DNA from: Pseudanabaena yagii GIHE-NHR1
GTDB lineage: Bacteria > Cyanobacteriota > Cyanobacteriia > Pseudanabaenales > Pseudanabaenaceae
Direction: 5' to 3'
DNA length: 64,000 nt
Assembly: GCF_012863495.1 (NCBI RefSeq)
Contig: NZ_JAAVJL010000001.1
Span: 1,550,001-1,614,000, forward strand
Shown: one piece after another, positions 4,075 to 26,627 of the stretch
How the letters are laid out: the number at the start of each line of letters is the position of its first letter
How positions within the stretch are numbered: position 1 is the first letter of the stretch
Made by a program: the position numbers and the translations under genes
The notes under the pieces: generated by a model
What the model was told of the DNA's origin: nothing
Databases searched by the model: none
Seen by the model: only the letters and a program-made list of their open reading frames with translations

Positions 4075-4135
4075 CAACAATAACTTTTTGAGAGAAGAGT
4101 TGCTACGCAACTCTTCTCTCAAAAAGTTATTGTTG
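4075..4135. terminator. 29-bp perfect palindrome, loop TAC
   Basis: Two perfect 29-base arms surround a 3-base loop (core TTGC-TAC-GCAA), starting 3 bases after the stop codon of the upstream membrane protein. It is one of the longest members of the GC-capped palindrome family in this window and a likely terminator. Confidence 0.7.
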
Positions 4136-24154: not shown

Positions 24155-25102
24155 GTGAGTGCGCTCAGTACAGGCTTAACCTCGCCCTTTGATATTGTCG
24201 TTGGGCAATCACAAGCTATCACTTTACTAAAAGCTGCCATCAAACGCGATCGCATTGCCCCCGCCTACTTATTTGCAGGTGCAAGTGGTGTGGGGCGCAG
24301 TAAAACCGCTTCGGCATTTGCGGAAATTTTATTAGGCGATCGCAAATCCGCAAATCGACTCAGCGATCGGAATCATCCTGATTTACTCTGGGTCGAGCCA
24401 ACCTATTTAGATAAGGGCAAAATGCTCACAGCTAAGGAAGCAGAGGCAGCAGGGTTAAAACGTCGAGCCTTGCCCCAGATCCGCATTGAGCAAATTAGGG
24501 AAATTAGCGAATTTGTCAGCCGTGCCCCCCTCGAATGTAAGCGATCAGTTGTGATTATCGAAGAAGCACAATCAATGGCAGAATCCGCCGCTAATAGCCT
24601 CCTAAAAACCCTCGAAGAACCTCTCTACGCCACAATTATCTTGATTGTTCCCGATGCAGGCTCGATTTTGCCCACGCTGGTTTCACGCTGTCAACGCATT
24701 CCTTTCACCAGACTGAATCAAGCTCAAATGCAGGAAGTTCTCACCCGTGAAGGACATACAGACATCCCCGCCGATGTGGTTGCCCTCGCTCAAGGTTCCG
24801 CAGGACAGGCGATCGATTCTTTTGAGAGATTTAAAAGTATTCCCATCGAATTATTAAACTCCGTGCGCCAAATTCCTCAAGATGCCCGTAGTGCAATGGC
24901 GATCGCCAAACAAATTACAAAAGAGTTAGAAGTCGATTTGCAGCTTTGGCTGATTGACTATTTACAAAACTATTTCTGGGAACAACAAAAATCGAAATCA
25001 ATCTTGCAACATCTCGATAAAGCAAGAGAATTAATTGCTCGCTATGTCCAGCCTCGACTAGTTTGGGAAGTAACACTGCTACAAATTGCAGGCAAGATTT
25101 AA
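24155..25102 (+). CDS. holB: DNA polymerase III delta' subunit
   Basis: A 315-residue AAA+ clamp-loader subunit. It has 'FDIVVGQSQAITLLKAAIKRDRIAPAYLFAG', a P-loop GASGVGRSKT (about 42-51), 'IEEAQSMAESAANSLLKTLEEP' (Walker B/sensor region) and the arginine-finger motif 'LVSRCQRIPF' (about 182-191). It works with DnaX and HolA to load the sliding clamp. The start is GTG at 24155, two bases after the previous stop. The family's four-cysteine zinc module is absent, as in some cyanobacterial copies (recall). Confidence 0.9.
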   Translation: MSALSTGLTSPFDIVVGQSQAITLLKAAIKRDRIAPAYLFAGASGVGRSKTASAFAEILLGDRKSANRLSDRNHPDLLWVEPTYLDKGKMLTAKEAEAAGLKRRALPQIRIEQIREISEFVSRAPLECKRSVVIIEEAQSMAESAANSLLKTLEEPLYATIILIVPDAGSILPTLVSRCQRIPFTRLNQAQMQEVLTREGHTDIPADVVALAQGSAGQAIDSFERFKSIPIELLNSVRQIPQDARSAMAIAKQITKELEVDLQLWLIDYLQNYFWEQQKSKSILQHLDKARELIARYVQPRLVWEVTLLQIAGKI

Positions 25103-25169
25103 CGATATAAGTAAACTTAAAGCACAGACCTTTGTATTGCTCACTAAGAGTTGAAACAGGGTTTGAGAG

Positions 25170-26398
25170 AGGGGTTGCACAGGGCAACCGCATAAAAAAG
25201 TGAATAAAATTAGGAGAAAATAACAAAAGTAAAACAGCAATGAATAACCCTATCGAAGTCAGTTTACTAAGACACTTTGAAGGAGTAGAAGACCCGCGAG
25301 ATAATCGAGGGAAAGAGCATAACTTGCTAGACATAATCGTAATCGCAATTTGCGCGGTGATAAGTGGGGGAGAAAACTGGGAAGATATAGCGCTATTTGG
25401 AGCATCAAAACAAGAATGGCTGGGGACATTTCTTGAACTACCGAATGGGATACCCTGTGATGACACATTTGCAAGAGTGTTTGCACGAGTGAACCCGCAA
25501 CAGATGCAAAATAGCTTCATCAGTTGGGTGAAATCAGTAAGTCAAGCGCTGCAGGGAGAGGTAGTAGCCATTGATGGCAAAACCTTGAGACAATCCTACG
25601 ACCGAGGAGCAGACAAAGGCGCAATTCACATGGTGAGTGCATGGGCAAGCGCAAATCGGTTGATATTAGGTCAATGCAAAGTCGATGAAAAATCCAACGA
25701 AATCACCGCCATACCAGAGTTATTAAAACTGCTGGAAATTAAAGGTTGTATTGTGACGATTGACGCAATGGGCTGCCAGAAAGAAATAGCTAGCCAAATC
25801 GTGCAACAAGGAGCCGATTATGTCTTAGCGCTCAAAGGTAATCAGGGAGGACTATTTGAAGATGTGCAGTGGTTATTTGAGCAAGCTATAAACACTGATT
25901 TTGTGGATGTAGACCATGACTTTTGCCAGTCCATAGATAAAGGACATGGGCGTTTAGAAATTCGACGTTGTTGGACTTTATCTAACTTGGATTACCTGAC
26001 TCAATTGCCTCTATGGGCTGGTTTACAGACTATTGCCTTAGTTCAAAGTGAACGCAGAATCAATGGGAAAGTCTCCACTGAAAATCGCTACTACATTTCT
26101 AGCTTGCCTTCTAATGCTGCTCTTATTGCCAATGCTGTTCGTACTCATTGGTCGATTGAAAATTCCTTGCATTGGGTTTTAGATGTCTCTTTTCACGAAG
26201 ATGCTTCCCGTATTCGCAAAGATAATTCTCCTGAAAATATGGCGATGCTGCGTCACTTTGCTCTTAATCTCTTAAGTCGCGATAAGTCTTCTAAGTTCAG
26301 TATGCGGGCGAAACGTAATAAGGCGGCTTGGGATCTGGCTTATCTAATTCATCTCCTTAACCTTTGACTTTTTTATGCGGTTGCCCTGAGGGGTTGCA
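25170..26398 (+). mobile_element. ISAs1-family insertion sequence with 10-bp target duplication
   Basis: The element spans 25180-26388 (1209 bp). The 22-bp terminal inverted repeats are CAGGGCAACCGCATAAAAAAGT at the left end (25180-25201) and its complement at the right end (26367-26388). The 10-bp word AGGGGTTGCA flanks it on both sides (25170-25179 and 26389-26398), a target duplication in the size range known for ISAs1. Removing the element restores a palindrome GGGTTTGAGAGAGGGGTTGC-ATA-GCAACCCCTC..., so the insertion is in the palindrome's tip. It looks complete and recent. Confidence 0.92.
25240..26367 (+). CDS. ISAs1-family DDE transposase
   Basis: A 375-residue intact transposase. The N-terminal 'LLRHFEGVEDPRDNRGKEHNLLDIIVIAICAVISGGENWEDIALFG' and the catalytic segments 'VVAIDGKTLRQSYD' (first Asp), 'IVTIDAMGCQKEIA' (second Asp) and 'HWSIENSLHWVLDVSFHEDASRIR' (Glu region) are typical of the ISAs1 family. 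The length is usual. The gene fills its element; its stop codon overlaps the right inverted repeat by one base. No frameshift or stop is visible, so it may be active. Confidence 0.95.
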   Translation: MNNPIEVSLLRHFEGVEDPRDNRGKEHNLLDIIVIAICAVISGGENWEDIALFGASKQEWLGTFLELPNGIPCDDTFARVFARVNPQQMQNSFISWVKSVSQALQGEVVAIDGKTLRQSYDRGADKGAIHMVSAWASANRLILGQCKVDEKSNEITAIPELLKLLEIKGCIVTIDAMGCQKEIASQIVQQGADYVLALKGNQGGLFEDVQWLFEQAINTDFVDVDHDFCQSIDKGHGRLEIRRCWTLSNLDYLTQLPLWAGLQTIALVQSERRINGKVSTENRYYISSLPSNAALIANAVRTHWSIENSLHWVLDVSFHEDASRIRKDNSPENMAMLRHFALNLLSRDKSSKFSMRAKRNKAAWDLAYLIHLLNL

Positions 26399-26439
26399 TA
26401 GCAACCCCTCTCTCAAACCCCAAAAGTGCTATGATGAAA

Positions 26440-26590
26440 ACCCAGATTTCGGTTTTAGTGAAGAGCAGTCACTAAAAGTAATGGGGAAAGTTTGGTGCAA
26501 GTCCAGCGCTGTCCCGCAACTGTGATTTTGATCTATCTAAGAACTCCGAGTTTTACGATAGATGTAAAAGAGTCAGAATGCCCGCCGAAT
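26440..26590 (+). ncRNA. Cobalamin riboswitch
   Basis: Conserved blocks occur in the right order: AATGGGGAAAG (26480-26490), TTGGTGCAAGTCCAGCGC (about 26492-26509), TGTCCCGCAACTGTGA (26510-26525) and AGTCAGAATGCCCGCC (26571-26586). This is the core of the adenosylcobalamin-type (B12) aptamer. Downstream, CATCTA (about 26611) can pair with TAGATG (about 26625), enclosing a GAGG Shine-Dalgarno-like motif, a plausible expression platform. Confidence 0.88.
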
Positions 26591-26627
26591 CGCATCTCCA
26601 CATAAATCTACATCTACGAGGTTATAG

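Follow-up and report, generated by a model that had tools for sequence, protein, structure and literature searches.

An ISAs1-family insertion in a Pseudanabaena gene-end palindrome and a possible mild preference of its kin for triloop hairpin tips

When an insertion sequence is found in the tip of a palindrome, it may have been directed there by the structure of its target or may simply have landed in DNA where hairpins are common. This question is raised by the 64-kb stretch of Pseudanabaena DNA analysed here (the window), in which an insertion sequence (IS) interrupts a palindrome between the DNA polymerase III delta' gene and a cobalamin riboswitch. The features of the locus are as follows.

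24155..25102, plus strand: upstream gene, DNA polymerase III delta' (NF005638, E 2.8e-121)
25159..25179, plus strand: interrupted palindrome, left arm and first loop base
25170..25179, plus strand: left copy of the target duplication, AGGGGTTGCA, nine arm bases plus the first loop base
25180..26388, plus strand: ISAs1-family insertion sequence, 1209 bp, with perfect 22-bp inverted ends and a flanking 10-bp repeat
25180..25201, plus strand: left terminal inverted repeat, CAGGGCAACCGCATAAAAAAGT; the same end is found at other copies
25240..26367, plus strand: ISAs1 transposase, single ORF of 375 aa, apparently intact (NF033564, PF13808, PF01609)
26367..26388, minus strand: right terminal inverted repeat, 22 bp, identical to the left end CAGGGCAACCGCATAAAAAAGT
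26389..26398, plus strand: right copy of the target duplication, AGGGGTTGCA
26389..26420, plus strand: interrupted palindrome, right side
26433..26603, plus strand: cobalamin riboswitch downstream of the insertion, beginning 35 bp past the right repeat (RF00174, 48.9 bits)

The original prediction had assigned the element to the ISAs1 family, and its profile match, ends and duplication length all agree. The transposase scores 443.8 bits against NF033564, the NCBI ISAs1 transposase model (cut-off 70, E 3.1e-133), and carries the Pfam pair PF13808 and PF01609. The perfect 22-bp terminal repeats begin with CAGGG, as in the family, and the ends of the window element's group read YAGGGCAACCGCA. ISAs1 elements usually duplicate 8-10 bp of target, and the duplication is 10 bp in the window copy and in four of the five copies of its own genome overall. 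The window element thus shares with the ISAs1 family (NF033564; DDE_Tnp_1 transposase) the profile, the ~1.2-kb single-ORF layout, the CAGGGC-type ends and the 10-bp duplication; no structural difference was seen, and copies at hairpin tips are a minority. Residues D112, D175 and E307 are candidate catalytic residues, as judged from their presence in a 28%-identical cousin; a search for solved structures with sequence resemblance to the transposase returned none.

Joining the flanks after removal of the element and one AGGGGTTGCA gives GGGTTTGAGAGAGGGGTTGC-ATA-GCAACCCCTCTCTCAAACCC, 43 bases in which 20 perfect pairs enclose a three-base loop. It had been predicted that a 10-bp repeat lies on both sides of an element at 25160-26410 and that its removal restores a palindrome; we recovered both the repeat, at 25170-25179 and 26389-26398, and the palindrome, with perfect 20-bp arms. 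As single-stranded DNA the restored palindrome folds at -24.4 kcal/mol, 11.7 SD below shuffled sequences (z -11.7). The description of the site as exactly in the tip needs refining: one end of the duplication falls inside the loop between bases 1 and 2, the other lies 9 bp down the arm, and the centre of the duplication is 5.5 bp off the dyad axis. In the right flank the duplicated 10 bp still gives a shorter 9-bp triloop hairpin after insertion (26389-26409).

The interrupted palindrome is the gene-end hairpin of the delta' gene. In the window, 17 triloop hairpins have stems of 12 bp or longer, a density of 0.27/kb (~1 per 3.8 kb). These stems are near-perfect, measure 12-30 bp and differ in sequence (for example at 4105, 4196, 4689, 4730, 9732, 17615, 27884, 51369 and 61605); nearly all are capped GC-NNN-GC, and three CAC-NNN-GTG. 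Together with the dozens of occurrences of the AGGGTTTGCRTAGCAAACCCT core in the genome, these hairpins show that the local palindrome family proposed earlier is real. At the 3' ends of delta' genes in many Pseudanabaena genomes (L393-L415), a triloop hairpin is kept in position while its sequence has turned over, and in the two relatives G022 and G030 a different and degenerate hairpin stands between the same two genes. The occurrence of other hairpins after the same gene in relatives indicates that the palindrome belongs to a fast-changing class of gene-end hairpins and that the insertion struck a pre-existing one. No exact orthologous empty site was found among the relatives; the intact duplication likewise implies that the palindrome predated the insertion.

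If hairpin tips were targets in the way that REP sequences are, as had been suggested, the other copies of the element should lie in them as well, and copies at sites without palindromes would speak against the idea. All copies were mapped in the element's own genome and in close relatives. The genome (5.57 Mb, 9 contigs) carries five copies including that in the window, and their 98-100% identity suggests recent movement. The copies at C1:3245791, C1:2210422 and C6:45925 have clean 10-bp repeats (ATCTCCAATG, TGGAGGACTG and GGCGAATCAT, respectively) outside any palindrome, and that at C1:3399655 lacks matching repeats and occupies a non-palindromic site. All four other copies in the genome itself are thus outside palindromes, and the suggested preference fails as a strict rule. 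A weaker form of it persists among kin, in which three sites of 37 coincide exactly in their position within a long triloop hairpin, a number above that given by the local background. As a separate observation, the copy at C1:2210422-2212503 (L201) contains a second IS of ~880 bp with TTAGAAAGCATTTAAG-type ends.

Kin loci were defined by the same ends and fetched from the family, including non-autonomous derivatives of 124 and 220 bp, and halves of insertions at contig ends were paired through their repeats. The resolved set comprises 37 distinct sites with exact 10-bp repeats, made up of 36 (one from Chlorogloea, L053) and a derivative in G030 (L453). Three of these sites (~8%) lie at the identical position in long triloop hairpins and the remaining 34 are not at tips. 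At each of the three independent sites the repeat consists of nine arm bases plus the first loop base, with the dyad 5.5 bp from the duplication centre. They come from three species and have different stems and loops (ATA, TTC and GAA), the two hairpins outside the window being 16-20 bp. In G022 (L214) the repeat is GTGCAACCC plus the T of loop TTC, and the element is 95% identical in DNA to that of the window; in G030 (L226/L170) it is AAACAGCAC plus the G of loop GAA, and the transposase is 54% identical. Besides these three contacts at 5.5 bp, long hairpins were contacted off the tip at two sites (L278/L266 and L206), 11.5 bp from the duplication centre in one case and 19.5 bp in the other. 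No target consensus emerged from the close set, where no position exceeded ~0.4 bit (36 sites).

Several related loci lie outside these counts or beside them. A one-sided insertion in G008 (L365), whose repeat CGCTTTGCGC spans a hairpin loop, remained unpaired and was left out of the counts, and sequences in G012 with CAGGGCAACCGCAGTA were rejected as insertion ends, being internal to another repeat. Many elements of G134 (26 copies) and G413 lack matching duplications, and those with duplications are not in hairpins. The G134 copies (L285-L338) are nearly identical ISAs1 elements in one cyanobacterial genome; 18 lack matching duplications, which points to extensive IS-mediated rearrangement. 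Almost no further close kin were found in viral contigs and other cyanobacteria. The derivatives are MITEs of the window's ISAs1 group, of 124 bp (L206, L219-L221, L453) and 220 bp (L207, L216), with the same ends and 10-bp duplications.

Since the shared offset was defined by the window copy, the test for an excess of tip hits was run without it. Two hits were observed among 36 sites against 0.019-0.074 expected (P 0.0002-0.0026), the lower expectation using the window-wide hairpin density and the higher the local density. These densities were based on the 64-kb window and the flanks of insertion sites, where hairpins with any loop reach 1.03/kb. When the insertion point was moved within the same flanks, which include the observed site, three hits were obtained in 0.03% of 20,000 shuffles. 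No long hairpin at the 5.5-bp offset was found at 58 distant ISAs1 sites (~40-58% identical), a comparison of low power; at two of the 58 a weak dyad lies close to the tip position. By eye, none of the 14 copies of a control IS of another group in the same genome (the top PF01609 cluster) lies at a hairpin tip. The tip bias is suggestive: it is mild (8%), counts few cases and is possibly inflated by intergenic survival, since it is not possible to correct the count completely for selection in favour of intergenic insertions. Among the distant elements, one from an Oscillospiraceae MAG (L077) has its 10-bp duplication, GCATATATGC, at the exact centre of a perfect 20-bp palindrome.

The explanation we find probable is an ordinary duplex ISAs1 insertion of low sequence specificity with a weak preference for deformable hairpin tips. 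A 10-bp staggered strand transfer into double-stranded DNA would have taken place at the pre-existing gene-end palindrome, with one transfer within the three-base loop and a second at 9 bp along the arm, by a transposase that would have little sequence specificity but mildly favour a single position in long triloop hairpins (~8% of copies). In supercoiled DNA the dyad may bend, melt or transiently extrude with ease, and the deformable target that this would create is the likely cause of the preference; the common geometry at the three sites and the duplex-type product are themselves observed. The duplex product is read from the junctions, ...TTGCA before the IS and AGGGGTTGCATAGC after it, where the direct repeat runs continuously through the asymmetric loop base, which argues for a duplex target rather than a single-stranded hairpin. 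Had a hairpin on the lagging strand, or a cruciform arm fully extruded by supercoiling, presented its loop as the substrate, the stability of these hairpins and the strand-transfer point within the loop in three of three cases would be well accommodated. However, transfer into a single-stranded hairpin should leave ...TTGCT or ...TTGCTA at the left junction of the window, instead of the simple 10-bp direct repeat kept at both junctions, and the two cut points would fall on different arms of a fully extruded cruciform, making such a substrate very improbable.

Chance followed by survival is harder to set aside. If insertion were random and genic copies were lost, the common gene-end hairpins of the genus would host some of the survivors, and this agrees with the plain sites of most copies, the denser hairpins near insertions (1.03/kb against a window average of 0.27/kb) and the hairpins after delta' genes in many relatives. 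Other hairpin positions were hit as well (L278/L266, L206), and the contacts at 11.5 and 19.5 bp would also follow from a simple bias toward intergenic DNA rich in hairpins; the 34 of 37 sites elsewhere and the small numbers also count against a tip preference. Yet this account leaves unexplained why three of five hairpin hits share one exact offset, with P ~0.003 on the local background even without the window copy, and we regard it as a tentative alternative of some weight. Strict palindrome specificity, of the kind seen in ISPsy8, ISRm22 or IS621, would suit the window site in isolation but is refuted by the mapped copies and has practically no chance of being correct: the ATCTCCAATG, TGGAGGACTG and GGCGAATCAT duplications and the fourth copy are in non-palindromic DNA, and the kin sites, mostly elsewhere, share no target sequence.

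Palindrome targeting is known from several IS families. A survey presents it as sequence-specific REP targeting by members of IS3, IS4 and IS110 whose copies all occupy one REP position; the elements of this kind include ISPsy8 (IS3), ISRm22 (IS4), ISPpu9/ISPpu10, and IS621 (IS110) (PMC1525189). ISAs1 does not occur in that survey, and a literature text search for ISAs1 and palindromes, which covered few subscription journals, returned nothing relevant. Like the REP-targeting elements, the window element occupies the tip region of an extragenic, repeated palindrome; in contrast to their use of one REP position for all copies, only one of its five own copies and three of 37 kin sites are so placed, in hairpins of unrelated sequence. 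An analogy for the proposed mechanism is phage Mu, whose DDE transposase binds its target more than ten times better when the DNA is flexible or pre-bent (PMC5357137), although Mu, as a phage, brings a target-capture protein of its own, and no membership is claimed. As it stands, the single window insertion is ordinary and the tip effect small. The broader proposal, that some ISAs1 transposases read DNA shape, recognising tips independently of sequence with one transfer in the loop, and that triloop gene-end palindromes are a recurring landing site across Pseudanabaena, is unlikely on present evidence. If true, such a sequence-blind, structure-guided preference would allow a cleaner test of whether DDE transposases are guided in vivo by DNA deformability, and IS traffic in cyanobacteria would be tied to gene-end hairpins.

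A second ISAs1 lineage, with ends GCAGGGTGGTTTCA, is present in six copies in the same genome (L006-L011) and eleven in G009 (L476, L481, L488, L493, L497, L500-L505). Its transposase matches NF033564 (E 1.1e-68) and is 28% identical to that of the window element, and both lineages are found in palindromic repeats. Unlike the window element, it has a strict target symmetric about the duplication centre, with a 17-bp duplication always within CC-N17-GGG (16 of 16 clean copies). Of these, about half fall within GC-rich palindromic repeats, for example CCCCTCTCCC-AAAAA-GGGAGAGGGG, where the centre of the duplication is at the tip or close to it; several such repeats resemble one another and perhaps do not count as independent cases. 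Palindrome-associated targeting is seen more clearly in this second lineage than in the window element's own, although what its transposase reads may be the motif rather than the hairpin.
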